NCBI GenBank assembly: GCA_021647945.1
Contig: JAKITT010000001.1
Location: 1 to 64,000 of the forward strand
Source: Candidatus Polarisedimenticolaceae bacterium
Lineage (GTDB): Bacteria > Pseudomonadota > Gammaproteobacteria > Chromatiales > Chromatiaceae
Reading direction: 5' to 3'
DNA length: 64,000 bases
The notes beneath the pieces were generated by a model. The model saw nothing but the letters and a program-made list of their open reading frames with translations. It was not told the origin of the DNA and did no database searches. Below are positions 1 through 17,747 of this stretch, in pieces; position 1 is the first letter of the stretch; each line of letters opens with the position of its first letter. The position numbers and the translations under genes were made by a program.

Positions 1-23
1 GCAGTACACCAAACATTGAGCTG

Positions 24-30
24 GTTAGGT
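24..30 (+). other. Possible R' box of a truncated attC site
   Basis: GTTAGGT at this position fits the integron core-site consensus GTTRRRY and is preceded by a CTG as in many attC sites. It lies just upstream of the alcohol dehydrogenase fragment, where the preceding cassette boundary would be expected if the 168-416 region is a cassette. The other half of the site would lie before the window, so the match may be chance. Confidence 0.22.
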
Positions 31-70
31 CTCTCTGTTCATAATCTTTTATCTACTATACCAATTTTTA

Positions 71-145
71 TTTTCCTCCCCCTCTCTCCCCCTCTTCTTT
101 TCTTCTTTCTCCTTTCTTTCCTCTCTCCTTCCCCCCCTTTCCTCC
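71..145. repeat. 75-nt pure polypyrimidine tract
   Basis: Every base from 71 to 145 is C or T, with no exact repeat unit. It sits directly before the gene fragment at 168. Such a mirror-like tract could form triplex DNA, but it could also be an assembly or sequencing artefact near a contig edge. No gene is visible in 1-167. Confidence 0.85.
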
Positions 146-167
146 ATCACTGACAAAGAAAGGGAAG

Positions 168-416
168 TTGATTTTAATTAACACGGGATTGCTAACTAAC
201 TTATTATCAATTACCAAAAGAAATGTGATTTGTGGTGTGGCAGGCGAGAGTAAAGAAGGTTTAGAGTTCCTTAAAAAGTGTATTGAAACAGGAAATTTTG
301 ATGCAGTTATCGACAGAGTTTATCCTTTAGAGAAAACTGCTGAGGCTCACAAATATGTTGATATAGGGCATAAAAAGGGAAATGTAGTTATATCAATGGA
401 GCATAAAGAAACCTAA
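168..416 (+). pseudogene. C-terminal fragment of a zinc-type NAD(P)-dependent alcohol dehydrogenase (MDR family)
   Basis: The 82 residues resemble only the extreme C-terminus of medium-chain dehydrogenases/reductases: a Rossmann-side stretch with CGVAGESKEGLEFLKK, then the family tail with AVIDRVYPLEKTAEAHKYVD and GHKKGNVVIS. The catalytic zinc domain and the nucleotide-binding core are missing, whereas full enzymes are about 320-350 residues. The open frame starts at a TTG behind a GGGAAG stretch, so a short product could be made, but it could not be an active enzyme. Its stop codon lies in the left core box of the split attC-like site, so the fragment behaves as the body of an integron cassette. 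I call it a gene remnant. Confidence 0.6.
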
Positions 417-482
417 TCGGGTAGCCGAGGGTATCTAACCCTCAGCCCCCACAACACCCTGCATGCGGCTCCGCACAGGGCG
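417..482 (-). ncRNA. Group II intron domains V and VI
   Basis: On the minus strand, CGCCCTG pairs with CAGGGTG around an inner GCG/CGC stem (455-482). This gives a domain V with a CGC-type triad as in class IIC introns. It is followed by a second hairpin, GCTGAGGGT/ACCCTCGGC (421-444), as domain VI. The intron 3' end follows directly. The RNA core looks intact even though the protein is broken, so it might still splice if a maturase acts in trans. Confidence 0.6.
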
Positions 483-484
483 TT

Positions 485-1613
485 TCACTTAGAATGGTGA
501 AGCTTGATCCATCCATCACGTAATGCATAAAGCCCCTGGGATTTAAGGTAAGCATTGGATAATGCTTGCTGAATTCCGGGGGTCTTTGAACTACGCCATG
601 GATCTTTGCTGGTAATGCCACACGCAACCGCTGTTTTCACATGCACCCCGAGTCGCATCAGACCTCTTACTTTGGTTCGTGGTTTTCGCCACTGTCGCCA
701 ATAGGCCATTCGAACTCTACGCCTGATCCATTGATCCAGATCGACACAGCGTTGATAGCCACTGGCTATTCCAAAGTAGTTGATCCAGCCGCGTAGATAT
801 TGGCTGATCTTGAAGAGCTGATACCGCTTCACCTGCACGAAGACTCTTTACCAAGATCGTAAAGTCGTCGGCATTGCGGGCAAATTTGTGTCCACGTTTA
901 TCTAGCTCTTTGTCGAGTGGATCGAGCATGATGTTGGCCAGTAAGGGGGATAATGGACCGCCTTGTGGGACACCTTCTCGACTCTCTACGTAGCGTTGGT
1001 TTTCCATTATTCCAGCGCATAGGTGGCGTTTGGTCAACCTTAGAAGACGTTTGTCCTTCACCCTGTAACCAAGGTGTGTCATCAGAAGGGTATGATCCAC
1101 CTGGTCGAAGAATTTTGAGAGATCAACATCTACGGCAAAGCGTCTCTCTTCCTTGATGATGCGCTGTACCTGCTTGATGGCTTGTTGCCCATTTCGGCCC
1201 GGTCGGAAGCCGAAGCTATTGTTTGAGAAACCGGGGTCGAAAATGGGGGTAAGCACTTGGGCTATCGCTTGCTGGATCACGCGGTCTATGACGGTTGGAA
1301 TCCTCAGTTGGCGTTTACTGCCATCGGGTTTATCAATTTCAATGCGCCTGACCGGTGATGGTTTGTACTGACCTGTTTTCAGGTCAGTCATTGCCTTTTT
1401 CCAGCCTCCTGATTGTGCCCAGGCAGGGAACTCATCAATGGTCATACCGTCAATGCCAGCGCCCCCTTTGTTGGCTCGAACACGCTTCCATGCCGCTTGC
1501 AGATTTGCACGCTGTAGCATTTGTCCGAGTAGATTTTCGCTAAAGGCTGGCTTCGGATCAGTACGCTGAATCACGTCGCTACCGGACGGTGTTCGTGCGT
1601 TCAGGTCTGACAA
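485..1613 (-). pseudogene. ltrA: Group II intron reverse transcriptase/maturase, internally deleted and frameshifted
   Basis: The N-terminal frame (1613 to about 840) carries RT blocks: GAGIDGMTIDEF, the RIPTVIDRVIQQA block, FGFRPGRN, VDVDLSKFFDQVDH and GVPQGGPLSPLLANI. The expected FARYADD catalytic motif reads FARNADD, replacing the tyrosine before the two aspartates. Just after VKSLRAGEAV the frame breaks. The neighbouring frame (838-485) resumes with LFKISQYLRGWINYFGI, WIRRRVRMAYWRQW and a typical maturase C-terminus. The thumb/linker that normally joins these segments is missing, so this is a deletion plus a frame change. With both lesions the protein should be non-functional. It lies inside the intron described at 416-2063. 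Confidence 0.85.
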
Positions 1614-2063
1614 GGCTCCTCCTTTATTCTAGTGTTCAGCCCTTCACCCTGTCCCACCCATTACGGTGGGCATTTGGCTACTATGGCCTCTGCTGACTTC
1701 TGCTTAATCACAATGGCAATTGCTCACCACCGCGCTGTCGGTTTACATCGGGTTCGCTCTCCTTTGTTGATGACATCAAAGGAGCCAAGGCATTTCTATA
1801 CCAGAGCCTCACTGGTTTTATACCGATCGCATGTTAAGCAGATCTCCCCAGATAAGAATATGAACTGTCACTGCACTGCTGCATCATTTACGGTGGCCGT
1901 TAGGTCACGTGGCTTCGATGTCTTGTGCCATCTCGCCTTCAGCCTACGCCTCGTATGATGTTTTTGTTCATCAGCTCGCAGCTTCCCCTCATGGGGCCTA
2001 CTGTTGGTGTGTCCGGCTTCCTTCAGACCGCCCCATTAGTTCATGCCCATGCTGGGCGTACAC

Positions 2064-2176
2064 AATAGCAATTGAGAGGGACAAACCTCCGCAGTGTTTA
2101 AATTGTGCATTCCCTTCGGTCATTGTTGCACAATTTAAACACCACTACGGCCTGCCCCTCATTGCTGGCGTTATGC
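2064..2176 (+). other. attC-like recombination site, split by the intron (left core at 411-415)
   Basis: Rejoining 411-415 to 2064 recreates ACCTAAA, close to the left-core consensus RYYYAAC. The right end has GCGTTATGC (2169-2177), close to GTTRRRY. Between them lies a long imperfect inverted repeat. AGCAATTGAG near the left end pairs with CTCATTGCT near the right end with one extra T on the left, like the extrahelical base of attC sites. Perfect 16-bp inner arms follow (2094-2109 and 2127-2142). The total of about 118 nt is within the attC size range. The orientation (conserved core on the right) matches cassettes reading on the plus strand. No integrase gene is in the window. Confidence 0.6.
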
Positions 2177-2229
2177 GTCTGAAAATTCCAGTGGATTGCA
2201 AAAGGCACACGTTGTGCTAACATTCTGGT

Positions 2230-2514
2230 ATGAAATGTTTTGCTTGGAACTCTGAAAAAAATGAAGCCCTAATGAAAGAGAGGGGCGTCTCATTTGAACG
2301 AATCATCTATCTTATTGAAAATGATGGATTACTTGCTGTTATCACACACCCAAATCAAGATAAATACCCGAACCAAAGAATGTTCATAGTGAATGTTGAG
2401 GCATACGCATACTTGGTTCCATTTGTTGAAGATGAAAAGGAAATTTTCTTAAAAACCATTATTCCTAGTCGCAAAGCCACAAAGAAATACCTGGAGGTTA
2501 ATGATGAGCATTAA
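2230..2514 (+). CDS. brnT: BrnT-like toxin of a toxin-antitoxin pair
   Basis: A 94-residue protein with the BrnT layout: an N-terminal CFAWNSEKN (family form FEWDxxKN), then KERGVSFERI, and a C-terminal IIPSRKATKKY matching the family ISARKAT-x(n)-Y ending. BrnT proteins are small ribonucleases of the RelE fold that block translation by cleaving RNA and are neutralised by BrnA. The gene starts 54 nt after the attC-like site. It overlaps the antitoxin gene, which follows it on the same strand, the usual brnT-brnA order. Toxin-antitoxin pairs are common stabilisers of integron cassette arrays. Activity is inferred from family resemblance only. Confidence 0.7.
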   Translation: MKCFAWNSEKNEALMKERGVSFERIIYLIENDGLLAVITHPNQDKYPNQRMFIVNVEAYAYLVPFVEDEKEIFLKTIIPSRKATKKYLEVNDEH

Positions 2515-2824
2515 ATTAGATAAGGAAGAAAAAGAGATATTGGAATCATATGAAAATGATGAGTGGGTTTCTGTCTCTAATCCCGATGAAATTAGTCGCT
2601 ATCAGGCGGCAGCTAAGGCGACATTCAAAAAAAATAAACGGGTGAATATTCGCATTTCTGGCGTAGATCTAGAGTTAATTCAGGAACGAGCTTTAATTGA
2701 AGGTATTCCTTATCAGACATTAATGTCTAGTATTTTGCATAAGTATGTTAATGGGCGACTGACGGATAAAGCCTATAAAATTAAATCAGACTGTCGTGTT
2801 ATTGATAGCTTTAATATGCCGTAA
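2501..2824 (+). CDS. brnA: BrnA/CopG-type antitoxin
   Basis: A 107-residue protein. After an acidic, lysine-rich N-terminus (residues 1-45) it has KKNKRVNIRISGVDLELIQ followed by GIPYQTLMSSILHKYVNGRL, the ribbon-helix-helix signature of CopG-like antitoxins that pair with BrnT-type toxins. It should bind both its toxin and the operon promoter. The start overlaps the toxin gene by 11-14 nt (two adjacent ATG codons at 2501 and 2504), which implies translational coupling. The last ten or so residues (after KSD) are not conserved in what I know of the family. Confidence 0.75.
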   Translation: MMSIKLDKEEKEILESYENDEWVSVSNPDEISRYQAAAKATFKKNKRVNIRISGVDLELIQERALIEGIPYQTLMSSILHKYVNGRLTDKAYKIKSDCRVIDSFNMP

Positions 2825-2845
2825 GCAAGGGGAATAATTAAACTT

Positions 2846-3046
2846 ATGGGGTTTAAAACTGAACCAACGGGATACGCAAAAACGGCTCTTTCTGACCTTC
2901 AAGGCTCATGGGGGAATTTGCGTAGGGCAGTGGTAGAAAGTTTTGGTTTTCCTGGTTCGGATAAGCTGTTATTTCATATTGATGAAGCAATGAGTTGGGA
3001 GGAGGAGATAAGCCTAATTACTCTCTATGTTTGTTTGATACAGTAG
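2846..3046 (+). CDS. Unrecognised short ORF, 66 residues
   Basis: I do not recognise this reading frame. It begins with ATG 22 nt after the antitoxin stop, behind a GGGG-containing stretch, and its N-terminal part (KTEPTGYAKTALSDLQG, then NLRRAVVESFGFP) has plausible protein-like composition. It could be a small cassette gene, the remnant of a larger gene, or non-coding sequence. No transmembrane segment or known motif is visible. Confidence 0.3.
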   Translation: MGFKTEPTGYAKTALSDLQGSWGNLRRAVVESFGFPGSDKLLFHIDEAMSWEEEISLITLYVCLIQ

Positions 3047-3075
3047 CGCACCCAGATTTACCAAACGAGTTTTAG

Positions 3076-3519
3076 ATGAAAAAAGTTGCGCGACCCATTT
3101 TAGCCGGCATGGTGCTGATCACGATCATTTGGCTGTTTATTGGAGATATCACCCCAACACAGCCGCCTTGGTTCAGTGCAGAACAGGTGTCACAAGGGGA
3201 AGAGCTCTATAGTGAACACTGTAGTAGCTGCCATGGTGTACATGCTGAGGGGGCTAAATCTTGGAGAACACCCGATGAGAATGGCCACTTACCGCCACCA
3301 CCCTTGGACGGTGCCGCTCATACCTGGCACCACCCAAAATCATTTTTGCAGCAGACTATTCTGGAGGGTGGGGCCAAACTAGGTGGCGTAATGCCGCCAT
3401 TTGCAGACAAACTGTCAGCAGATGAGGTGGATGCCGTCATTGCATGGATTCAGTCACTCTGGCCGACCGATATCTACTATAGCTGGAGCAAACGAGAGCA
3501 AAAAAGGGCAAACCAGTAG
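3076..3519 (+). CDS. Membrane-anchored monohaem cytochrome c
   Basis: 147 residues. Residues 7-23 form one hydrophobic helix that is either an uncleaved signal anchor or a signal peptide. A class I cytochrome c domain follows, with haem-binding CSSCHG (residues 49-54) and a candidate methionine ligand in GGVMPPFADKLS (about 107-118). The closing helix has EVDAVIAWIQSLW. It should carry electrons on the periplasmic side of the inner membrane. The partner is not evident; a small membrane protein gene follows 88 nt later. There is no signature of a specific oxidase subunit. Confidence 0.8.
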   Translation: MKKVARPILAGMVLITIIWLFIGDITPTQPPWFSAEQVSQGEELYSEHCSSCHGVHAEGAKSWRTPDENGHLPPPPLDGAAHTWHHPKSFLQQTILEGGAKLGGVMPPFADKLSADEVDAVIAWIQSLWPTDIYYSWSKREQKRANQ

Positions 3520-3607
3520 CGAATGGGAAGAGGCACGGTCTCTCTAGATTCACCATCAAAAATCGCGCATGTCCCGATGAAACGCGGTGTGTCACAGAGG
3601 ATGTGAA

Positions 3608-3907
3608 ATGAGCTTTAACATTGCAGCACTCCCAATCCTAATTCTTGCCGTAGTGGGTGCGGGATCAATGTTTTGGGTGATGAAGGTACTGTCTAATGAG
3701 GTCTCCCATGAAAAGCTGAATAATGTGGAAGAGTTAAGTAAGTTATGGAAGACAAGCTTTCCACCCTCATCCGTTCTGACAGAACGGGGGCTAAAAATAC
3801 AATTTAGATATCGTCTCTTTATCATCCTCTTAATTATTGGCACAGGTGTTATGGGATATTTTCTAACTGGCTTTAGCCTTTCACCAATAGCCTATTGTGC
3901 TGAATGA
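3608..3907 (+). CDS. Small two-helix inner-membrane protein
   Basis: I chose ATG 3608 because a GAGG element (3597-3600) sits at normal spacing. An in-frame start at 3587 would add seven residues ahead of the hydrophobic segment. The 99-residue product has one hydrophobic helix near residues 4-24, a charged middle containing EELSKLWKTSFPP, and a second helix near 65-88. No known family is recognised. It follows the cytochrome at 3076-3519 on the same strand and could be its membrane partner, but that is inference. Confidence 0.55.
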   Translation: MSFNIAALPILILAVVGAGSMFWVMKVLSNEVSHEKLNNVEELSKLWKTSFPPSSVLTERGLKIQFRYRLFIILLIIGTGVMGYFLTGFSLSPIAYCAE

Positions 3908-4265
3908 GAAGGCCAACTCACACTGCCCGACTATCAACGCAAGTAGGCGCAACCATTACAAACTGAGGTGGTTGCAAGCGTGACTAAACAACCGTAGGTC
4001 CGGACAGTGCATCCAAACCGTGCGCTTGAAAGCGCACCTACAGTCAATCATGCCTCAATCAATGGTATCGGAGTAATCGATTGGGCTCCCTTGATAGCAA
4101 TGCCAAAACCAAAATGAAATAGGGTCAGGTTCTTGAAATCTACATTTCAAGAACCTGACCCTAGGATTTTCATCCCGTACTACAATCGGTTCTCCTCAGG
4201 CAGTTATGCTACTGGCTGAGTGATCATAGTAGGAACAAATGACGGTTACAGGGTGCTGGTTCCCT
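3908..4265. other. Gene-free interval with hairpins
   Basis: No credible gene on either strand. It holds a short hairpin GTGCGCTT/AAGCGCAC (4020-4037) flanked by GTAGGT and ACCTAC, and the long perfect palindrome described separately. It separates a plus-strand gene pair from a convergent minus-strand cytochrome gene. Confidence 0.7.
4120..4163. repeat. Perfect 20-bp inverted repeat with 4-nt loop (REP-like)
   Basis: Arms 4120-4139 and 4144-4163 (starting TAGGGTCAGGTTCTTG) are exact reverse complements around CTAC. There is no following T-run, so it is not a classic terminator. It lies between two convergent transcription units and may block both. Similar 'GGGTCAGGTTC' hairpins accompany REP-associated IS200-like transposases elsewhere, but no such gene is here. 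Confidence 0.85.
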
Positions 4266-5237
4266 TTAGTTCCATCCCTGTAATACCCAGTTTTCCCACA
4301 TAGGCCGATCCTTAGAGTCTGGAACATACCCACTATCAAGGCTATGGCAGAATACACACTTCACTGTGAGAGATCGTTCCCTTGATAGATAGAGATTCAT
4401 CCCTTCTATACCACCATATGCATGTCTGACACGACCCGATCCTTGGTGACAGGGTGAGCAGCCTTCGCCGCCAGCCACTTTGGTGTTGGTCAGTTGATGA
4501 TAGGGTGGACGGTCAAGTGGGTTGGCTCTCCAAACTTGCTCCCCAGTTTGACTATCAGTTACATAGCCACCTACCGTCGGGGTATGGGTTAGGCGATCAT
4601 TGGTGAGATTATTGTAATCAAACCCAGGTCGTCCACCGTTACGACCGAGCACGTTTGGCCAGCTATGTGGCCCCAGCGGCCCGCCAGCAGGATTGCTCCA
4701 TGAGTAGACATCCCTGGCCACTGTTTTGGCCATGTGGCAGCGGTCACAACCCCATCGGGTGATTTTAATCTGGCGTGCGGCAACGGCTCCATCTGCATCT
4801 GAGATCGTCAGGGTGACGGCCCTGGGCAAGAGAGAAGCTCCCTCTGAGTCTTTTTCACCGGGTTTGAACAACTCTCCACCAACACTGGCTTCAGTGACCA
4901 CAAATGCCCCTCTATAGATACCATCTTCCCCAAGATGCTCCTCCATCAGACCTTCCACAGGCTCTGCAAGGCCTTCAACTGAAAACGTCAGATAAGATGA
5001 GCTACCGCTGTATCCTTCAAGGGAAAAACCGACGGAAATATCATGTCCATCCATCGGCCAGAGATTTGGATTCACCCCCAGCCACTCATAACGTGCGGCA
5101 CTGTAGACCCAAAAATAGGGGTCCAGATTATACATACTCTTATCAGTATCGATGATGGGTGGCTGCGCCCGCGCTCCGCTCATTGCAAACACGAGACCAA
5201 GCAGCGCAAAGTTGATAATGGGGATAAATCGTTTCAT
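4266..5237 (-). CDS. Periplasmic triheme cytochrome c
   Basis: The start at 5237 is chosen because it gives a clean signal peptide (MKRFIPIINFALLGLV... ending SGARA) and has AAGGAG nine nt upstream. A further in-frame ATG at 5285 would add 16 charged residues in front. The mature protein (about 300 residues) has an N-terminal half without haem sites that looks like a beta-rich, Ig-like domain (VTLTISDADGAVAARQIKI). A C-terminal half with three haem motifs follows: CDRCH, CSPCH and CVFCH. Many prolines and aromatics separate the sites, unlike the compact c7 modules at the other end of the window. The electron partner is unknown; the gene stands alone between repeat-rich gaps. Confidence 0.75.
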   Translation of the reverse strand: MKRFIPIINFALLGLVFAMSGARAQPPIIDTDKSMYNLDPYFWVYSAARYEWLGVNPNLWPMDGHDISVGFSLEGYSGSSSYLTFSVEGLAEPVEGLMEEHLGEDGIYRGAFVVTEASVGGELFKPGEKDSEGASLLPRAVTLTISDADGAVAARQIKITRWGCDRCHMAKTVARDVYSWSNPAGGPLGPHSWPNVLGRNGGRPGFDYNNLTNDRLTHTPTVGGYVTDSQTGEQVWRANPLDRPPYHQLTNTKVAGGEGCSPCHQGSGRVRHAYGGIEGMNLYLSRERSLTVKCVFCHSLDSGYVPDSKDRPMWENWVLQGWN

Positions 5238-5470
5238 TCCATATTGCTCCTTTATTTTCTTACGTAGTGCCATCAAGCTGGACACTTATCTCGAAAATAA
5301 GTCGATCAAACCAGCAAGTCAAGATATCTCAGATTATGCCAGCCATTTGAGGAAGTATTATCCTTAGCCTAACAACAGAGGCATATTTAACCTCAAACTA
5401 TGAGAGGGCCACACCAAAGACTTTGATCCCTTCTGTTAGAGCTTCCAAACACGAAAATACAAACTAAAGT

Positions 5471-5500
5471 TATATAGGGCAATATAGGGCAATATAGGGT
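5471..5500. repeat. Three tandem copies of a 10-bp unit (AATATAGGGC)
   Basis: TATATAGGGC, AATATAGGGC and AATATAGGGT stand head to tail directly before the left arm of the interrupted hairpin element. No gene is involved. Confidence 0.85.
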
Positions 5501-5810
5501 GCCTCTATTAATTCATGGATGAGCAGCTTGAACCCATAATTCCCAATGGCAGCGTCGCTAAGTGCTTGCAATAGAGCAACTATTACAAGCACTTAGCACC
5601 TTGCTCTTGAAAATCATGAAAGGGGTATCCACTCCATTGGCCTAATAGGGTAGGTGCACATTCATGTGCATGTTTGCAGGTTCGGCTGGTCGCATAAATG
5701 CGACCCTACACGAGCATGAAAGTATCTGGAGTGGAAAAAGGCCAATGAAGTGGATACCCCCTTATTATGATCTCAATCTGTCTCACCCAGAATTAATAGA
5801 GGTGCCCTTT
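5497..5810. repeat. Short hairpin element split by a 258-bp insert
   Basis: The left part, 5497-5532, carries the arm CCTCTATTAATTCA, the loop TGGATGAGCAGCT and the start of the right arm. The rest of the right arm, AATTAATAGAGG, appears only at 5791-5802. An intact relative with the same 13-nt loop sits at 16165-16215. The insert (about 5533-5790) contains another hairpin (arms 5557-5574 and 5580-5597, one mismatch) and copy A of the palindromic element. This explains the gap between the cytochrome gene and gnd. Confidence 0.75.
5622..5760 (+). repeat. Palindromic element family 1, copy A (long form)
   Basis: 139 bp bounded by terminal inverted repeats GGGGTATCCACTCCATTGGC and the complement of GGGGTATCCACTTCATTGGC. 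Inside are two further hairpins: GTGCACATTCATGTGCA and GGTCGCATAAATGCGACC. It has no ORF. Structure and copy number fit a MITE-like or REP-composite element. Other copies are at 17403, 22448 and 41888. Confidence 0.85.
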
Positions 5811-5844
5811 AGTCAGTGATCTCAACAATAGAGCGGAGCATCAA

Positions 5845-7293
5845 ATGAATAGTGCGGATATCGGCCTGATTGGGCTGGCAGTTATGGGGCAAAACCTGGC
5901 CCTGAATATCAATGATCATGGTTATAAAGTTGTCGCCTACAACCGTTCCACGCAGAAGGTGGATGATTTCCTAAACGGCGCTGCCAAAAGGAGTGAGATC
6001 GTCGGCGCTTACTCACCCGCTGAGCTGGCTGCCAAACTGCAAACGCCCCGCAAGATTATCCTGATGGTGCGCGCAGGCGAGGCGGTCGACCAGACCATCG
6101 AAGCACTGCTGCCGCATCTGCAACAGGGTGACATCATCATTGATGGTGGAAACTCTCACTTTCCCGACACTGACCGACGTACGGCTGAACTGGCAAAACA
6201 GGGCATCCATTTTCTCGGCTGTGGCATCTCGGGCGGTGAGGAGGGGGCAAGAAATGGCCCGTCAATCATGCCCGGTGGCAACCCTGAGGGGTGGCCAGCG
6301 CTCAAGCCGATCTTCCAGGCGATTGCCGCTAAGGTCGATGATCAGGCCTGCTGCCAGTGGGTGGGGGAAGGGGGTGCAGGCCACTATGTAAAGATGGTTC
6401 ACAACGGCATTGAGTATGGCGATATGCAGTTGATCTGCGAGGCCTATCACCTGATGCGCACGGGGCTTGGCCAGACGATTGATGAGACACAGAAGGTCTT
6501 CAGCCGTTGGAACCAGGGGGTACTCGACTCCTATCTGATTGAGATCACTGCGGACATTCTCGGTTTTACAGATGAGCAGGGGAACGCCATAGTCGAGCAG
6601 ATTCTCGACAGCGCCGGACAGAAAGGCACCGGCAAGTGGACTGGCATTAGCGCGCTGGAGTTGGGTGCGCCACTCACGCTGATCGGGGAGGCAGTATTCG
6701 CTCGTTTTCTCTCCGCCCTGAATGATGAACGCCGCCGTGCCGCACCACAGTTCGTTAGTGAGGGCTCACCTTTTGATGGTGACAGCGCATCAATCATCGA
6801 CGATATCCACGATGCCCTCTACGCCTCCAAGATCATCTCCTACGCCCAGGGGTATATGCTGATGCGTGAGGCGGCAAAAGCCTACGGCTGGCAACTCAGT
6901 TTTGGTGATATCGCACTGATGTGGCGTGGCGGCTGCATCATCCGCAGCGTTTTTCTTGCGGATATCAAACGGGCCTTTGATGACAACCCACAGTTGGATA
7001 ATCTGCTACTGGCCCCCTTCTTCACCGAGGCGATCAAAAAGGCCGAGCCTGGCTGGCGCCGGGCGGTGATGTTTGGTATTCAGCAGGGCATCCCGATGCC
7101 CGCCTTTAGCTCCGCCCTCGCCTTCTTTGATGGCTATCGCTGTGAATGCTTGCCTGCCAATCTGTTGCAGGCACAGCGCGACTACTTTGGTGCGCATATG
7201 TATGAGCGCATCGACCAGCCACGTGGTCAGTTTTTCCATACCGATTGGATCGGCTCTGGCGCGGCGGCCTCCTCCAGCACCTATCAGGTATAG
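5845..7293 (+). CDS. gnd: 6-phosphogluconate dehydrogenase, decarboxylating
   Basis: 482 residues, the full length of the bacterial enzyme, which oxidises 6-phosphogluconate to ribulose 5-phosphate with release of CO2 and NADPH. The N-terminal nucleotide site reads GLIGLAVMGQNLALNI. Substrate and catalytic motifs are IIDGGNSHFPDT, GCGISGGEEGARNGPSIMPGG and HYVKMVHNGIEYGDMQLI (catalytic lysine). The C-terminal tail ends FHTDWIGSGAAASSSTYQV, as in the homodimeric form. It is the first gene of a gnd-zwf-pgl operon; zwf starts 3 nt after its stop. The operon runs backwards relative to pathway order. Expression probably starts in the repeat-rich gap upstream, where I see no convincing promoter. 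Confidence 0.97.
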   Translation: MNSADIGLIGLAVMGQNLALNINDHGYKVVAYNRSTQKVDDFLNGAAKRSEIVGAYSPAELAAKLQTPRKIILMVRAGEAVDQTIEALLPHLQQGDIIIDGGNSHFPDTDRRTAELAKQGIHFLGCGISGGEEGARNGPSIMPGGNPEGWPALKPIFQAIAAKVDDQACCQWVGEGGAGHYVKMVHNGIEYGDMQLICEAYHLMRTGLGQTIDETQKVFSRWNQGVLDSYLIEITADILGFTDEQGNAIVEQILDSAGQKGTGKWTGISALELGAPLTLIGEAVFARFLSALNDERRRAAPQFVSEGSPFDGDSASIIDDIHDALYASKIISYAQGYMLMREAAKAYGWQLSFGDIALMWRGGCIIRSVFLADIKRAFDDNPQLDNLLLAPFFTEAIKKAEPGWRRAVMFGIQQGIPMPAFSSALAFFDGYRCECLPANLLQAQRDYFGAHMYERIDQPRGQFFHTDWIGSGAAASSSTYQV

Positions 7294-7296
7294 ATC

Positions 7297-8778
7297 ATGG
7301 CTGACCCCTCTACCTACGTTATCTTCGGCTCGACCGGCAACCTCTCTCGCATCAAGCTGATGCCGGCACTCTACCATCTCGATGCGGTGGGCAAACTGCC
7401 GCTGGAGACCAAGATTCTCGCCATCGGCCGCAGCATTCAGGATCGTGATGAGTTCATTAGCAAAGTGCGGGAGTGGATCAGTGAAAAGGCGCGCGGCGGT
7501 CTGGACAGTATGCTGTTCGAACGTTTTTCAAACCGCCTGCTCTACGTCAAAGGTGACCTCACCGAACCTGAAATGTATCAGCGGCTCAACTCACTGCTTG
7601 AGAATCGCTACGCCTTTCCCGGTAATGTTGCCTACTACATGGCGATCCGCCCGGCTGATTTTGGCGGGGTAATTGACAATCTTGGCCAAGTCGGCCTGCT
7701 GGATGAGTCTGATGGCTGGAAGCGGGTGGTGATCGAAAAACCGTTCGGCTATGACCTAAAGAGCGCGCAAGCACTGCAACAGCGCATCAGTCGCCATCTA
7801 AAGGAGGAGCAGGTCTACCGTATTGACCACTATCTAGGCAAAAGCACGGTGCGCAACGTATTGGTCTTCCGCTTCGCTAACCTGCTGTTGGAACCTGTGT
7901 GGAATCGTCACTATATCGACCATATCCAGATCACCCACTCCGAACAGCTCGGCGTGGGCAGCCGTGCCGCTTTCTACGATGGGGTGGGTGCACTGCGCGA
8001 TATGATTCAGAGCCATCTGTTGCAGTTGATGACACTGGTGGCGATGGAGCCTCCCGCCTCGATGACCGCTGAAGATCTGCGTGATGAGAAGGTGAAGGTA
8101 CTGAAATCGATCCGCCCCATCCCACAAGATGCCGTGCATGAACACGTTTGTCGTGCACAGTATACAGCTGGAACGATCAATGGTGATCAATCAGTTGTGG
8201 GCTATCTGGATGAGGAGAACGTGCCGCAAGGCAGCACCACTGAAACCTATGCAGCGATGAAGCTCTACATCGACAACTGGCGCTGGCGTGGTGTGCCCTT
8301 CTATCTACGCACCGGCAAACGTATGGCAGAGGGCCGGTCAATGGTCAGCATCTGCTTCAAACAACCGCCGCAACAGTTCTATTGCGATGCCAGTGAAGAG
8401 CTGCGTCACAATTGGGTGCTACTCGGAATTCAACCCGACGAGTGCCTGCGCATGGAGGTGACAGTCAAAGAGCCGGGGCTGGCGATGCACACCCGGCAGA
8501 CCAGTCTTGATGCCGGTCTACGCCTTGAAGGGGAGGATACAACCGACGCCTATGAGGATCTGCTGTTGGATGTGATCGAAGGCGACCGTTCACTATTCCT
8601 ACGCTACGACGAGGTGGAGTATGCTTGGCGGGTCATGCAGCCGGTACTGAATGAGTGGAGCAGCAATCGCGATAGCATCGCTACCTATCCAGCAGGCTCA
8701 TGGGGGCCAAAAGAGAGCTGCCAGTTGTTCGACAGTGAGAAACATCAGTGGCGACACAACCTGGAGCCATTTAAGTGA
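7297..8778 (+). CDS. zwf: Glucose-6-phosphate 1-dehydrogenase
   Basis: 493 residues, normal size. It oxidises glucose 6-phosphate to 6-phosphogluconolactone, reducing NADP (or NAD). The coenzyme motif is [19 protein letters not shown], where most homologues have GASGDLAxRKL, so the aspartate is asparagine here. The substrate motif [21 protein letters not shown] keeps the active-site RIDHYLGK, with serine in place of the usual glutamate after it. [11 protein letters not shown] and the late [17 protein letters not shown] block are conserved. It is tightly packed between gnd (3-nt gap) and pgl (4-nt overlap), so the three are almost surely co-translated. Confidence 0.96.
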
Positions 8779-9476
8779 AACACCATTGGTCACGCTTTGA
8801 GAGTGCAGAGGCGGTCGCCGAAGATGGCTGCGACAAGACCCTAGCTGCGGCAAAACAGGCGATTGAGCAACGCGGCTCCTTTCATATTCTCCTGGCCGGT
8901 GGCAGCACGCCAACATTATGTTACCGACGGTTGGCTAGCAGTGATGCTGACTGGCCCCACTGGCACATCTACTTTGGTGATGAACGATGTTTACCGAAGC
9001 TTGATCCCGCGCGTAATAGTCAGATGGCGGCATTGGCACTCACCGAACAGGTGGCAATACCCAGTAGCCAGATCCACCCCATTCCAGCAGAACTGGGCGC
9101 AGAAGAGGCGGCAAAACAGTATGACGCTTTGATCAGCAACATACTGCCATTTGATATGGTACTGCTGGGCATGGGGGAGGATGGTCACACCGCCAGTCTT
9201 TTTCCTGGTCAGCAACATCCCGCAGGGCGGTCAGTAGTGGCTGTTCACAATGCACCCAAACCACCCGCTGATCGAGTCAGCCTCTCAGCCGCGGCACTCA
9301 GCAATTGCCGCCAACTGCTATTTCTGGTGACCGGCAGGGGCAAACAGCAGGCAGTGGCTCAATGGCGCAACGGTAAGAGGCTGCCCATCACACAGATTGA
9401 AGCGATTGGACCGAGCGAAGTGCTCATCGACGCCGATGCTTGGCCCGCTAATCAGCCAACCAATCCTCACGTTTAG
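8775..9476 (+). CDS. pgl: 6-phosphogluconolactonase
   Basis: 233 residues of the DevB/SOL type, hydrolysing 6-phosphogluconolactone to 6-phosphogluconate, the step between zwf and gnd. Family motifs are [26 protein letters not shown] and [16 protein letters not shown]. The GTG start overlaps the zwf stop (GTGA), the usual coupling in this operon. Its last 29 nt overlap the end of a convergent minus-strand lipoprotein gene, so no terminator separates the two units. Confidence 0.93.
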
Positions 9477-9933
9477 CACGACGCCAACGGACACTCTGTA
9501 GCAACCACTCACCCTCATACCGCACTAACTTCATCTCAAAGAGATGGATGGTGGCACGCAGTGCGAGTAGATGTTCAAAACCCTCAATAGGATCACCGGC
9601 TAAGCCAGCCAACAGCACCAAATCAGCTTGGTCAGGTTGAGAGAAGGTGAGTTTTTTAATGCGGGTCAGGGTGTGGATATTTTTATGGCGCAAAAAATAT
9701 CCCGCCACCAGGGCAACGATATTCTGCTGTTTCCGATTTCGCTCATCACGGTAATCTTTGGCGATCAGTGATTTCATCGCGAACGTATCACGCGCTTGAG
9801 TAGCCGCCTCGCCAGCAGCGATGTAGGCCTTAATCTGATCTTCGGGTGAGTCGCTGTTTTGACTGCAAGCAGTAATAAACAAAAGGGTGACGATACAAAG
9901 AAGCGCGACCACCCTTTTGCTATAAGTTTTCAT
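9448..9933 (-). CDS. Small lipoprotein of unknown function
   Basis: The start at 9933 is chosen because it begins a signal peptide directly (MKTYSKRVVALLCIVTLLF) with lipobox ITAC; a longer frame from 9993 puts 20 polar residues ahead of it. The mature protein is about 138 residues and mostly helical, ending in a beta-like stretch (MKLVRYEGEWLLQSVRW) reminiscent of NTF2-like folds. That fold is only a guess. It is anchored in the cell envelope by a lipidated cysteine near residue 23. It overlaps pgl tail to tail by 29 nt. No family name can be given. Confidence 0.7.
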   Translation of the reverse strand: MKTYSKRVVALLCIVTLLFITACSQNSDSPEDQIKAYIAAGEAATQARDTFAMKSLIAKDYRDERNRKQQNIVALVAGYFLRHKNIHTLTRIKKLTFSQPDQADLVLLAGLAGDPIEGFEHLLALRATIHLFEMKLVRYEGEWLLQSVRWRRAKREDWLAD

Positions 9934-9993
9934 CTCATCTAGCCCGGATATTTCATGAATTTGTGCAAAGATTGCGCAGGATATTGGTTTCAC

Positions 9994-10243
9994 AAGGAAA
10001 TTTCTGAAGAAACCCCGTATCAGTGATTACGGGTGACTGAAGAAATATTTCTTGTGGAATCAATAGACAAGCAAGATTGTACATAATTTATGAATTATCC
10101 GGGCTAAAGCCCTTTGTACGAAAAATAGTTTTCGTCCCGGCAAGGCAAAAATGTTCGAAAAGCCGGAGTTTACTGGAGTAAATGAGGGCTTTGAGATCAT
10201 TTTTAACGCCGCAGGGGCGGAAAATATGAATCGTAAAAAGGGT
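9994..10243. other. Gene-free gap, short inverted repeats
   Basis: The interval between the lipoprotein promoter side and the end of dapB contains GGGCTAAAGCCC (10102-10113), a CGAAAA/TTTTCG pair and a CCGC-CCCT-GCGG mini-stem (near 10211). None is followed by a clear T-run, so none is called a terminator. Confidence 0.5.
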
Positions 10244-12201
<1,958 letters not shown>

Positions 12202-12221
12202 AGGGCTCTTTTCGCTATGAA

Positions 12222-12267
12222 ACCGCAGAGGCGCAAAGCTGTAAAAACAACCTTGCGCCTGTGCGGT
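12222..12267 (-). repeat. Hairpin between dnaK and dnaJ
   Basis: Arms 12222-12236 and 12253-12267 (ACCGCAGAGGCGCAA and TTGCGCCTGTGCGGT) are complementary except for one position. There is no T-run after it on the minus strand, so it is more likely an mRNA processing or partial-attenuation site that sets the dnaK to dnaJ ratio, or a REP-like repeat, than a full terminator. Confidence 0.7.
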
Positions 12268-12304
12268 TCAGAAAAACTAACAGGGGGGTAAAATGACCCG
12301 CTGC

Positions 12305-14245
12305 TTACTTCTTGTCGTCTTTGACCTCTTCAAACTCGGCATCGACAACATCATCATCTTTGGCAGCAGTGGCGCTCTCTGTCGCTTCACCCGGTGCGGC
12401 TCCTTCGGCGCCCGCTTCTGCACCTTGCTGGGCGTAGAGACGTTCGGCCATCTTGCCAGAAGCATCGGTCAGATCTTTAGTTTTGGCTTCGATCTCTTCT
12501 TTGTTGTCACCTTTCATCGCCTCTTCAAGGGCGGTGATGGCTGACTCAATAGACTCTTTCTCATCCGCTTCGAGCTTATCTTCACCCAGCTCATCCATGC
12601 TCTTCTTGGTAGCATGGATCATGCTGTCGGCTTGGTTGCGTGTCACTGCCAGCTCTTGGAAGGCATGATCTTCTGCGGCGTGTGCCTCAGCATCTTTGAC
12701 CATCCGGTCGACCTCTTCATCACTCAAGCCTGATGAGGCTTTGATGATGATCGACTGCTCTTTACCAGTTGCTTTATCTTTTGCGGAGACATTGAGAATA
12801 CCATTGGCATCAATATCAAAGCTCACTTCAATCTGCGGCATGCCACGTGGTGATGGTGGGATGTCGGTCAGATCAAAACGGCCCAGTGATTTGTTGCCAC
12901 TGGCCACTTCACGTTCACCCTGTAGCACATGCACGGTGACAGCCGTCTGATTATCATCAGCGGTTGAGAAGGTCTGGCCAGCATTGGTTGGGATGGTGGT
13001 GTTCTTGTCGATCAGTTTGGTCATAACGCCACCAAGCGTCTCAATGCCGAGTGACAGTGGCGTCACGTCCAGCAGCAACACATCTTTCACTTCACCGCCA
13101 AGTACACCGCCCTGAATAGAGGCACCAATAGCAACGGCCTCATCTGGATTAACATCTTTACGCGGGGCTTTGCCGAAGAACTTCTCTACCGTCTCCTGCA
13201 CTTTAGGCATACGGCTCTGACCACCCACCAGAATCACTTCGTCGATCTCTGAACCGGTCAGGCCGGCATCTTTCAATGCGACACGGCAAGGTTCAATGGT
13301 GCGTGTTACCAAGTCATCAACCAGCGCTTCAAGCTTGGCACGGGTCAGTTTGACGTTGAGATGTTTAGGGCCGGTAGCATCTGCGGTGATGTAAGGCAGA
13401 TTGATATCGGTCTGCTGACCATTAGAGAGTTCACACTTGGCTTTCTCGGCGGCCTCTTTTAGGCGCTGTAGTGCGAGTGGATCGTTACGCAGATCAAAAC
13501 CCTGCTCTTTCTGGAAGGTCTCTACCAGGAAGTCGATGATGCGCAGATCAAAATCTTCGCCACCGAGGAAGGTATCACCGTTGGTGGAGAGCACTTCAAA
13601 CTGATGCTCGCCATCAATTTCGGCGATCTCAATGATGGAGATATCAAAGGTACCACCACCCAGATCAAAGACAGCCAGGGTCTGGTCGCCACGTTTTTTG
13701 TCCATACCGTAGGCCAGTGCGGCAGCGGTAGGCTCGTTGATGATACGTTTTACTTCGAGACCCGCGATACGGCCTGCATCTTTGGTTGCCTGGCGTTGTG
13801 AATCATTAAAGTAGGCCGGTACGGTAATGACCGCTTCGGTCACATCTTCGCCAAGATAGTCTTCAGCGGTTGATTTCATCTTCTGCAGAATTTTGGCTGA
13901 GATCTCTGGGGCGGCCATCTTCTTGCCGTGTGCCTCAACCCATGCGTCACCGTTGTCAGCTTTGACGATGTTGTAGGGCACCATCTTGATATCGCGCTGT
14001 ACTACTTCATCTTCAAAGCGACGACCGATCAGACGTTTGATGGCAAACAGGGTGTTGGTTGGGTTGGTGACGGCCTGACGTTTGGCTGCCTGACCAACTA
14101 AAACTTCACCATCGGCGGTATAGGCGATGATGGAAGGGGTGGTGCGATCACCCTCACTATTTTCAATTACCTTGGCGGTATCACCCTCCATCACTGCGAC
14201 GCAGGAGTTGGTGGTGCCGAGGTCAATTCCGATGATTTTTCCCAT
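12305..14245 (-). CDS. dnaK: Molecular chaperone DnaK (Hsp70)
   Basis: 646 residues. It starts [19 protein letters not shown], the first phosphate-binding loop of the actin-like ATPase (1-380). It continues with [12 protein letters not shown] and [13 protein letters not shown], then the substrate-binding beta domain ([17 protein letters not shown] onward, 390-500), a helical lid, and the acidic tail [13 protein letters not shown]-driven binding and release of unfolded polypeptides occurs in the cytoplasm with DnaJ and GrpE. A GGAG element lies ten nt before ATG. The gene sits 67 nt after grpE with no visible separate promoter. Confidence 0.98.
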
Positions 14246-14312
14246 TATCTGAGTTCTCCAGATGTAATAATTAGTTCAGTATGTTGGCAAGATGGGGCCG
14301 CACGTTGCGATT

Positions 14313-14921
14313 TCAAGCCTGTTCGTCAATTGGTTTAACAGGTGCCTGTGAGACCATCACCATGGCGGGACGTACTAGACGGCCATTGAGGGTGTAACCC
14401 TTCTGAATAACGGTAATGACCGTATTGGGTTCCACATCGGGGCTTGGCACCATCGACATCGCTTGATGAAATTCTGGGTTAAAGGGTTCACCCGCTGGGT
14501 TCACTTCAACAATGGCAAACTTCTCCATCGCATTGGCGAAAAGAGTCAAGGTCATCTCTGTGCCTTGCAGCAGATGGGTCACATCCGCACTCCCATCTTG
14601 GGCCGCCGTCAGCCCCAGTTCTAGGCTATCCTTGATCGGCAGTAACTCACGTACAAACTTCTCAATGCCGAACTTATGCGCATTCTCCAGCTCTTTCTGC
14701 TGACGGCGACGCACATTGTCCAACTCAGCACGCGCACGTATCAGCTGGTCCCAATTCTCATCGGCTTTGGACTTTGCCTCTTCCAATAGACGGCTCAAGT
14801 CTTGCTCCAACTCCACCGCCTCATCCAGCTCTTGCTCGACAGATGATGCCTCCAATACTTCACCTTGCAGCTCGACCTCTTGCTCATCTTCAGGCTGTTC
14901 TGTTCGTGGCTCATCTGCCAT
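14313..14921 (-). CDS. grpE: Nucleotide exchange factor GrpE
   Basis: 202 residues. A long acidic, Glu/Gln-rich N-terminus (1-55) leads into the dimerising coiled coil (LIRARAELDNVRRRQQKELE, about 60-85). The C-terminal beta-wing follows, with VEVNPAGEPFNPEFHQAMSM and VIQKGYTLNGRLVRPAMVMV. GrpE opens DnaK to release ADP and acts as a thermosensor. A GAGG ribosome site precedes ATG. It is the second gene of the hrcA-led operon, 121 nt after hrcA. Confidence 0.96.
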   Translation of the reverse strand: MADEPRTEQPEDEQEVELQGEVLEASSVEQELDEAVELEQDLSRLLEEAKSKADENWDQLIRARAELDNVRRRQQKELENAHKFGIEKFVRELLPIKDSLELGLTAAQDGSADVTHLLQGTEMTLTLFANAMEKFAIVEVNPAGEPFNPEFHQAMSMVPSPDVEPNTVITVIQKGYTLNGRLVRPAMVMVSQAPVKPIDEQA

Positions 14922-15042
14922 TTTTCTACCTCAAACTTTAATAGAGAGCGCCATGTCGTGGCACCATTTAATAGGGGATAAACGCAGCGTAAAAATATTC
15001 AAACACCGCACGTTAAATTTAGTGATGTGAAGATGGGGTTTC

Positions 15043-16098
15043 TCAGCGCGATTTCAAGGCCGCGCCCAATAATTTTGCGGTGACATCAACCAGTGGCACA
15101 ACGCGATCATAGGCCATACGGGTCGGGCCGATCACACCCAGTACGCCGACCACCTGACCATCAACCTGATAGGGGGCAGTCACCAGACTACAGCCGTCGA
15201 ATAGCTTGTAACCCGAGTCACCGCCGAGAAAAATCTGCACCCCATCGGCCCCCATAAAGCCATCCAGCAGATGGATAATCTGGTTCTTCTCGGTAAACGC
15301 CTCAAACAGCTGCTTCAGGCGATCCACACTGGCCAGCTCCTCAAATCCCATCAAATTGGTCTGCCCGGCGATAACACAATCCTCTTTCGCCTCGGCATCT
15401 TCGACTACCTGCCCGGCCATCTTCACCGCTTGGTGCATCAGATCATCCATGCGTTGCTGGGTCTCCTGCATCTCTTGCAGTAGACGTGCACGCACCCGAC
15501 TCATATCTTCACCGTTAAAAGTATGGTTGAGGTAGTTGGCTGCCTGCTCCAGCTGGGAGCGGCTCAATTCGCGTTCAACACGAATGATTCGATTGTGTAC
15601 TTCACCTTGGTTGGTGACCAGAATAGCCAGCACTTGGTTGCCGGAGAGTGGTAGAAATTCAATCTGCCGAAAAGAGGTCTGTTCACGTTTTGGCAGTGTC
15701 ACGACACCCGCCATACTGGTGATGCCCGACAACAGCTGCGATACATTTTGCATCATCACCGCAGGGTCGCCCTCAAGCGACAGCTGGACGCGGATGGCAT
15801 TCACCTCGTGTTCATTGATCGGCTGCAACGTCAACAGTGAGTCAACAAAGACGCGATACCCTTCAAGCGTTGGGACACGGCCTGCGGAGGTGTGCGGTGA
15901 GGCGACTAGCCCCAACGCTTCCAGGTCAGACATGACGTTACGAATGGTTGCCGGACTCAGATCCAAACCGGCATCTTTGGCCAGTGTGCGTGAGCCTATC
16001 GGCTGCCCTTCGCGGATGTAACGCTCAATCAGTGTCTTTAGAAAATGCTGTGCACGTTCACTGACTGCACCTTCACTCACAACATTTTTGGCGGTCAA
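15043..16098 (-). CDS. hrcA: Heat-inducible transcription repressor HrcA
   Basis: 351 residues. It has an N-terminal winged helix (LIERYIREGQPIGSRTLA, LSPATIRNVMSDLEALG), the linker SPHTSAGRVPTLEGYRVFVD, a GAF-like middle, and the C-terminal GVLGVIGPTRMAYDRVVPLVD motif. HrcA normally represses heat-shock genes through CIRCE operators. I searched the grpE and hrcA upstream regions by eye and found no TTAGCACTC/GAGTGCTAA pair. The start is TTG at 16098, directly behind GAGGTGATT, which decides it. Many enteric gammaproteobacteria lack hrcA, so its presence is of some taxonomic use. Confidence 0.95.
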   Translation of the reverse strand: MTAKNVVSEGAVSERAQHFLKTLIERYIREGQPIGSRTLAKDAGLDLSPATIRNVMSDLEALGLVASPHTSAGRVPTLEGYRVFVDSLLTLQPINEHEVNAIRVQLSLEGDPAVMMQNVSQLLSGITSMAGVVTLPKREQTSFRQIEFLPLSGNQVLAILVTNQGEVHNRIIRVERELSRSQLEQAANYLNHTFNGEDMSRVRARLLQEMQETQQRMDDLMHQAVKMAGQVVEDAEAKEDCVIAGQTNLMGFEELASVDRLKQLFEAFTEKNQIIHLLDGFMGADGVQIFLGGDSGYKLFDGCSLVTAPYQVDGQVVGVLGVIGPTRMAYDRVVPLVDVTAKLLGAALKSR

Positions 16099-16125
16099 AA
16101 ATCACCTCGGGACAACAGCCAGGCC

Positions 16126-16156
16126 ATATAACGCTTTAGCTCTCAAATGGTGTCAA
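16126..16156 (-). promoter_or_regulatory. Candidate hrcA promoter
   Basis: On the minus strand TTGACA (16156-16151) and TTATAT (16131-16126) are 19 nt apart, a little long for the housekeeping sigma factor. The extended CTTGAC also recalls a heat-shock -35 box, but no CCCCAT-type -10 follows. It lies about 30 nt upstream of the TTG start of hrcA. Confidence 0.3.
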
Positions 16157-16164
16157 GAGCCAAA

Positions 16165-16215
16165 GGTCACCTCTATTGATTCATGGATGAGCAGCTTGAA
16201 TCAATAGAGGTGACC
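16165..16215. repeat. Intact copy of the short hairpin element
   Basis: Perfect 19-bp arms (16165-16183 and 16197-16215) flank the loop TGGATGAGCAGCT. The same loop and similar arms occur in the interrupted copy at 5497-5532. It sits just upstream of the hrcA promoter candidate in the 360-bp gap between hrcA and a cytochrome gene. The rest of that gap shows no gene. Confidence 0.85.
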
Positions 16216-16458
16216 ATAAGTCAGCGAGAAGCTATCAACTCCACCCTAGTGAGTCAAGATAGCGTCCAATTGCAATGGCGATCTGCACCGCCCATATAGA
16301 GAGATTTTCACCGCACCAATACCCCCCTCAGCAACTGCTATCTACCCGGTTGCATTGGTATTTACCCCGGGCGAATAGGACGATGAGTCATGTTACAGTT
16401 GAGGTCATAATAAATAGGCTTGCGACTGACGCTACAAGATCAAACATGAGGGGGATAT

Positions 16459-17145
16459 ATGAAGCAGTTTATCATTCTGACCATATTGGCTTGGTCTCTT
16501 TCCAGCACCAGTCAAGCAGCCCCCATCGATCTCATGGCTCTGGAGACGGGGAAAAAAACCTATAATGCATTTTGCATCTACTGTCACGGTGCAAAAGGTG
16601 AAGGTGATGGCCAGGCGGCAGCACTCAATGGCGTGCCGCTCGTTGATATCTCCAACAAGGCTTACATGTCTCTCCTCAGCGATCAGGATATCTATGACCG
16701 GATCGCCTACGGCAAAGAAAAATTCCCCTATATACAGATGCCGGGCTGGCGTTCAAATCTCAAACCACAAGAGATCAAAGCGGTGGTTGTCTATGTTAGA
16801 AGCCTCGCTGTCGACAAGGGTGCATTGAAAGGGCCCACACCAAAAGAGCGTGAAGAGCGGTTCAACAACAGCTCTGCCGAAAAGGGGCGTATCTACTATC
16901 TGAAGTACTGCTCCACCTGCCACGGTAGAACAGGTGATGGTAAAGGCCCCGTTGCCAATACGCTAAAGCTGAAACCTGCCTGCTTTAATGACCCAAAAAT
17001 CACTGAGCAGCTGACCACTGAAAACGTCAAAAAATATGTCACTGATATCAGTGAGGAACGTGGCCGCTATATGCCGATATTTGAGCCATTCATCGAAGAG
17101 TATATTGATGAGATCGTGCAACACATAAAAACACTCGCCAAGTAA
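16459..17145 (+). CDS. Dihaem cytochrome c, periplasmic
   Basis: 228 residues with a signal peptide (MKQFIILTILAWSLSSTSQA). There are two class I cytochrome c domains. The first has CIYCHG near residue 39 and the methionine ligand candidate in YIQMPGW (about 97). The second has CSTCHG near residue 151 and the candidate RYMPIF (about 201). Linked double domains of this type act as soluble carriers or subunits of periplasmic dehydrogenases. The small membrane protein gene follows after 5 nt, so the pair is probably one operon. No enzyme subunit gene is adjacent to give a specific role. Confidence 0.85.
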   Translation: MKQFIILTILAWSLSSTSQAAPIDLMALETGKKTYNAFCIYCHGAKGEGDGQAAALNGVPLVDISNKAYMSLLSDQDIYDRIAYGKEKFPYIQMPGWRSNLKPQEIKAVVVYVRSLAVDKGALKGPTPKEREERFNNSSAEKGRIYYLKYCSTCHGRTGDGKGPVANTLKLKPACFNDPKITEQLTTENVKKYVTDISEERGRYMPIFEPFIEEYIDEIVQHIKTLAK

Positions 17146-17150
17146 AAAAG

Positions 17151-17381
17151 ATGACTCAACCACAACATGACCAACAGCCCCACAAATCAGTTCAGATTGG
17201 TGTCTACGCAATGATGCTTGGCCTGGTTGGCTCTGCCATCGCCTACTTGGGGCTTTGGCTGGAGTCAGACATGATGGGGCTCGTCGGTTTCTGCCTGGTA
17301 GGCATCGCCATACCCGGCGCACTTATCTCCCTCTTCTGGAGCGTGCTGCACGCTTGGCGCAACAGGGGGCAGCCGGAGTAG
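17151..17381 (+). CDS. Small two-helix membrane protein
   Basis: 76 residues with two hydrophobic helices, at about 17-38 (IGVYAMMLGLVGSAIAYLGLWL) and 41-65 (GLVGFCLVGIAIPGALISLFW), and a short basic tail. It starts 5 nt after the dihaem cytochrome gene. The family is not recognised. It could anchor or assist the cytochrome, which is an inference from position. Confidence 0.6.
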   Translation: MTQPQHDQQPHKSVQIGVYAMMLGLVGSAIAYLGLWLESDMMGLVGFCLVGIAIPGALISLFWSVLHAWRNRGQPE

Positions 17382-17402
17382 CACCGCATTTAAACCGAAA
17401 AA

Positions 17403-17525
17403 GAGGTATCCACTCCATTGGCCTAATATGGCTGTAGGTGCACATTCATGTGCACGTTTGCAGGTTCGGCTGGTCGCATAAATGCGACCCTACACGAGCA
17501 TAAAGTGTCTGGAGTGGACACCCCC
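17403..17525 (+). repeat. Palindromic element family 1, copy B (short form)
   Basis: About 123 bp, starting GAGGTATCCACTCCATTGGC and ending CTGGAGTGGACACCCCC. It contains the same GTGCAC and GGTCGCAT hairpins as copy A but lacks the second inner GGCCAATGAAG segment near its right end. It fills the first part of the gap before lptD; 17526-17747 holds no supported gene. Confidence 0.85.
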
Positions 17526-17747
17526 TTAACCAAAAAACCGTTCTAACATCACCTCCCTTATCCTATCGATAGAGGCCACTGCACAACCGGCCAGCAAAGA
17601 AATCTCTCTCCCATCGAATACAAACAGATGGCTGCTCGCTGTGTGACGTTGATTTGAATAAATAGAGATTCTATGCGACTTTAGCGAGCGAGCGGTTGCA
17701 GCGATGCAAACCACCACCTTACCCACCCTTTCCAGAGTCTATCTTTA

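Follow-up and report, generated by a model that had tools for sequence, protein, structure and literature searches.

At the left end of contig C159, in a 3.43-Mb assembly of 163 contigs, a hairpin resembling an attC recombination site appears to be interrupted by a group II intron. The locus raises three questions: whether the hairpin is a genuine attC site belonging to a gene cassette, where precisely the intron begins and ends, and what has since become of both elements. The window, meaning the whole stretch of 64,000 nt that was analysed, comprises that end of the contig. The best explanation, to which we give a probability of roughly 0.93, is that an intron inserted into the attC site of a cassette and subsequently decayed.

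Judged by its sequence features, the window intron is a group IIC-attC intron lying on the bottom strand within an attC site. The initial annotation had proposed such an intron within an attC-like hairpin; the Rfam matches for domains I-IV and domains V/VI confirmed the intron, and the hairpin that it splits is about 120 nt long. Group II ribozyme domains were recovered on the bottom strand by RF02001 (in part), RF01998 and RF00029 (Table 1). The intron-encoded reverse transcriptase/maturase (IEP), its gene itself being broken, belongs by sequence identity to the IIC-attC lineage; it showed RVT_1 and GIIM domains only, without an endonuclease domain. By DNA comparison, the nearest relatives were the ltrA introns within attC sites of class 1 integrons on Klebsiella, E. 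coli and Pseudomonas plasmids, at 79% identity over 95% of the intron. These class 1 integron introns, as well as S.ma.I2, share with the window copy the same ends, the same placement on the bottom strand of attC and the same TTGT/T junction; however, the ltrA copies reside in resistance integrons, whereas the window copy resides in a chromosomal gammaproteobacterial cassette.

The intron had been placed at 416-2063, which proved to be two bases too long. On plasmids, the empty aadA cassette site reads GAATTGT/TAGACA on the bottom strand, and the filled site reads GAATTGT-GTACGCCC...CCCGAT-TAGACA. Since the aadA insert begins with GTACG, the start moves inwards by two bases and the window intron becomes 416-2061, with a size of 1646 nt; filled and empty attC sites on resistance plasmids assign GT at 2063-2062 to the 5' exon. 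The arrangement GT/GTACGCC...CCGAT/T was seen in nearly all intact relatives examined, which included Thiohalobacter, Photobacterium and Thiotrichaceae as well as chromosome and plasmid copies, and most of their exons, when rejoined, scored as attC. In the window, the 5' exon ends in CTATTGT on the bottom strand and the 3' exon is TAGGT; this TTGT/T junction is that of an insertion into the bottom strand of attC, and agrees with the published rule for group IIC-attC introns (PMC7923331). Relatives showing the intron to end elsewhere had been named as grounds against the initial reading, and this was true only to the extent of those two bases.

Table 1. Coordinates of the features identified in the window, on other contigs of the same genome and in related genomes
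Feature	Position	Strand	Evidence or remark
Zinc-binding alcohol dehydrogenase/quinone reductase cassette gene, 3' part	1-415	+	Pfam ADH_zinc_N_2, 6e-10
First five bases (ACCTA) of R'' core box; 3' exon of intron	411-415	+	Rejoined ACCTA + AC = ACCTAAC
Group IIC-attC intron, decayed	416-2061	-	5' end GTACGCCC at 2061, 3' end CCCGAT at 416; Rfam and empty/filled sites
Intron domains V and VI	416-485	-	RF00029, 48.3 bits
Broken intron-encoded reverse transcriptase/maturase	485-1613	-	RVT_1 and GIIM (Pfam)
Intron domains I-IV, 3' portion	1639-1734	-	RF01998, 63.1 bits
Intron domain I, portion	1866-1984	-	RF02001, model 38-161/170; first 37 model positions missing (deletion)
Rest of attC (AC of R'', L'', central hairpin, L', R'); 5' exon of intron	2062-2176	+	Arm score 46.0 rejoined; hairpin fold
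BrnT-like toxin gene	2230-2514	+	PF04365, 7.9e-8, just below curated cut-off
CopG-type antitoxin gene	2501-2824	+	PF12441, 6e-5, below curated cut-off
Integrase gene, complete except one TGA stop	C145 (L011), 5283-6221		
Integrase, C-terminal part, different integrase	C86 (L012), 498-1079		
Integrase, N-terminal part	C153 (L013), 182-442		
Array of four attC sites, one strand	C63 (L125, 580-3487): 580-692, 1194-1302, 2810-2922, 3389-3487		
579-nt ORF-less IIC-attC intron in another attC, same genome	C42, 6960-7538 (L074)		Adjoins Phd/VapC-like toxin-antitoxin pair
ORF-less IIC-attC introns, 704-759 nt	L211 3188-3891; L212 3268-3972; L165 2069-2827; L199 1356-2106; L200 384-1138		Complete ribozyme domains; different sites, several genera

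Unlike the class 1 integron copies, the window copy has suffered partial deletion of both domain I and the IEP gene. Full-length relatives have about 73 nt more of domain I, at intron positions 33 to 80, and their RT gene is longer by about 206 nt. The RT part (717-1613) and the domain X, or maturase, part (485-838) lie in different frames with some 52 residues absent between them; IEP query residues 2-277 and 330-443 were matched separately, and the parts are 74% and 89% identical to the IEP of the class 1 integron IIC-attC intron (ltrA, WP_172691983). With domain I incomplete and the RT gene shortened and out of frame, the intron has probably lost the ability to splice or to move unaided, and most likely it is dead. 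Both intron ends, domains V and VI and the EBS1 loop (GAACAAAAACATC) have been kept, and on this basis the copy might be thought still active, either splicing from antisense transcripts or being moved by an enzyme acting in trans. This seems improbable, given that part of domain I is gone (the Rfam model starts at 38), that the RT gene is broken and that a search of the window's genome found no intact relative of the intron enzyme. Another decayed IIC-attC intron likewise lies at a contig edge and opposite to the cassettes; that intron is truncated at its 5' end, whereas the window copy retains both ends and has internal deletions. A search for an outward promoter of the window intron produced nothing above chance.

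When 416-2061 is removed, an attC site of 120 nt is restored, ending with GTTATGC at 2176. The rejoined R'' is ACCTAAC, a perfect instance of RYYYAAC; R' (GTTATGC, 2170-2176) fits GTTRRRY at six of seven positions and is found, too, at the end of real attC sites in relatives, so that a core box is present on either side. A palindrome of about 118 nt had been described beforehand, with ACCTAAA at its left; its R' box stood, while its size and left core did not, the core having looked imperfect because the boundary was two bases off. The R and L arms pair into a bottom-strand hairpin, in which R' and R'' pair, imperfectly, only under the corrected boundary; under the former boundary they are unpaired. 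The R''-L''-L'-R' layout and the length of about 120 nt are shared with attC sites of chromosomal integrons and CALIN (VCR-like in length), and the GGGAC...GCCCCT arms recur at another locus (L081). In contrast to those systems, the window attC is single and split by an intron, and the integrase genes lie on other contigs, broken or cut.

The attC character of the rejoined site was evaluated with an arm scorer, written after a simple core-plus-fold scan had missed long attC sites and calibrated on arrays of relatives. The rejoined site scored 46.0, against 36.3 with the former boundary and 32.0 for the filled site; real attC sites score from about 48 to 65, and the window site is near their low end. 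When the window was shuffled 60 times by dinucleotide, scores of at least 46 arose 0.48 times per 64-kb shuffle on both strands, or approximately 4e-6 per position, a figure that is an estimate since the core weights were set by hand, and that applies as the chance because the position is fixed by the intron. The bottom strand folded at -28.4 kcal/mol, compared with -13.3 for shuffles (z = -6.5). While RNAalifold returned no consensus for the attC alignment, the named R/L pairs were paired in 77.8% of cells, which was equalled by 0 of 500 shuffles. A covariance model (R1) was built from 28 attC sites taken from relatives and from plasmids, and its best match in 20 kb was 2056-2176 (12.4 bits, E = 0.12), scored with the intron still splitting the site. 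The filled site still matches because the 5' end of the intron on the top strand (GCGTAC), together with AC, partly rebuilds an R''-like box at 2056-2063 (GCGTA-c-AC).

IIC introns commonly insert after terminators (PMC4424553), and some relatives of the window intron sit after U-rich stems (for example, L059); the hairpin could be an inverted repeat of another kind, such as an ordinary transcription terminator, downstream of the dehydrogenase gene, after which a IIC intron had inserted. There is little to recommend this, since the stem lacks a T-run, no terminator-like site was found at 1600-3100, and the hairpin has attC core boxes on both ends with its arms in the R/L layout of attC. Moreover, contig C63 of this genome carries similar sites in an array, and one of these shares the central GTTTAAATTGTGC.

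The same cassette was found without an intron in another member of the family (G030). Window positions 1-415 aligned ungapped to a full-length dehydrogenase gene in that genome; the left flank, initially called a gene fragment, is a gene that the start of the contig cuts off, and whose TAA stop overlaps the attC core. In G030, ACCTAAC comes immediately after the stop codon of the gene, without interruption, and beyond it the sequence is homologous to the body of the window attC. The arm score of the G030 site was 58, against a maximum of 48 in 1000 shuffles. Behind R'' the site carries 25 additional bases, its R' is mutated and model R1 gave no match on it, which makes it a worn empty attC. 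The empty site that was to be looked for among relatives therefore exists, in worn form. Since G030 has the gene and ACCTAAC without an intron, the gene and the attC core were together before the intron arrived. A genome of the same genus (G001) was uninformative on the empty site because its contig ends within the neighbouring cytochrome c gene.

The order of gene, intron and attC is also the intermediate predicted for a cassette in the making, in which two intron copies recombine and join an unrelated gene to an attC, as proposed by Leon and Roy 2009 (as cited in PMC7923331); however, this is highly unlikely here, given that the intron-free G030 already has the same gene before ACCTAAC and a homologous attC body, which argues against cassette assembly by introns at the window locus, and that the 3' exon of a second intron copy (C42) continues the R box pairing.

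Alignment with G030 also concerned the quality of the contig. Window positions 41-145 formed a pyrimidine-only stretch (90% C/T) that was collinear, base for base, with the G030 dehydrogenase gene; the differences were mostly A to C and G to T, with pyrimidines kept. This stretch looks like miscalled bases rather than biology. The contig begins inside the gene with its first 145 bases partly corrupted, and the assembly is not of the best quality at this point.

Under insertion followed by decay, the intron would have reverse-spliced into the bottom strand of the dehydrogenase cassette attC at a point within the R'' core, where TTGT (IBS1, which closes the hairpin arm) meets T (IBS3). The last five bases of R'', as read on that strand, would thereby have been separated from the hairpin; without them IntI should fail to recognise the site, and the cassette is probably locked in place. 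The loss of part of domain I, and of about 200 nt of the RT gene with the break of frame, would have come later. The reverse-splicing route, the loss of IntI activity and the loss of splicing are what we infer; the junction expected where the intron is absent is ACCTAACAATAGC.

The toxin-antitoxin genes that follow the attC had also been regarded as a cassette, which was not borne out: no attC was found behind 2230-2824, nor was any second attC found in window positions 1-20000 with filters off, and searches of plasmids for the pair returned only distant BrnT relatives without cassette context. No match to intI was found on the window's contig, and the window, over the part scanned for attC, shows neither a second attC nor an intI with attI by which an integron or array would be recognised. 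The earlier statement that no integrase was nearby holds for the window, but the genome has intI on C145, C86 and C153 (Table 1). The suggestion that other contigs be checked for intI and attC was productive, yielding these integrase genes, the four-attC array on C63 and single attC sites on C97 and C12. Some attC sites of the array have the central GTTTAAATTGTGC in common with the window attC. Of the two settings first offered, a chromosomal cassette array or an isolated landing, the chromosomal cassette setting stood, and the array on C63 brings the genome closer to the former, while the window itself has only one attC. The integrase pieces and the attC array, which this assembly places on separate contigs, may or may not belong to one integron.

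The second copy in this genome, on C42, belongs to a set of introns with no ORF. It is without any RT gene, and its rejoined attC had an arm score of 54.5; in the genus mate G001, an intron located elsewhere, at the end of a contig, shares the short domain IV of the C42 copy. Copies with intact ends and less than 800 nt long numbered nine in seven genomes, and end-intact, RT-less copies of 530-759 nt were present in G005 (two, back to back), G033, G086, G218, G073 and G036 (two). All tested ORF-less copies had the full Rfam domains I-IV except that on C42, where domain I is partly deleted, and most reached the gathering score for domains V/VI. Copies from G005, G033, G086 and G218 were 79-93% identical, and those from C42 and G036 were 78-80% identical; a stretch of domain IV around CCCGACCGGGT was common to both groups. 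The two copies in G036, a complete genome in one contig, were 94% identical with unrelated flanks. No close IIC-attC enzyme was found in G036, where the best IEP match had 38% identity. The G073 copy looks like a separate deletion derivative. At L160 (2107-3615), two ORF-less introns stood back to back, the insertion point of one seemingly lying a single base within the 5' end of its neighbour (TTGTG/TACG), and L200 displayed a similar tandem.

The occurrence of end-intact, ORF-less introns at varied sites in several genera, including the window's genome, suggests movement in trans, which is the simplest reading of these copies. On balance, we lean towards a putative ORF-less branch of IIC-attC introns, with complete domains and ends and its own short domain IV, that has spread in trans within this gammaproteobacterial family. 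ORF-less introns are rare in bacteria according to reviews (PMC4424553), and no report of them in the IIC-attC class was found in the literature searched, which is no proof of absence. Such a branch would be more novel than the window insertion itself, which is of a kind already known and of which the window copy is a true, well-preserved example.

At the window locus, an environmental chromosomal cassette was hit by the same intron family that occurs in clinical resistance integrons, and the ends of the intron were fixed to the base. The main interest lies in the intron-free relative and in the ORF-less branch. If that branch is real and mobile, attC hairpins would be targets of enzyme-free introns that depend on the enzyme of another element.
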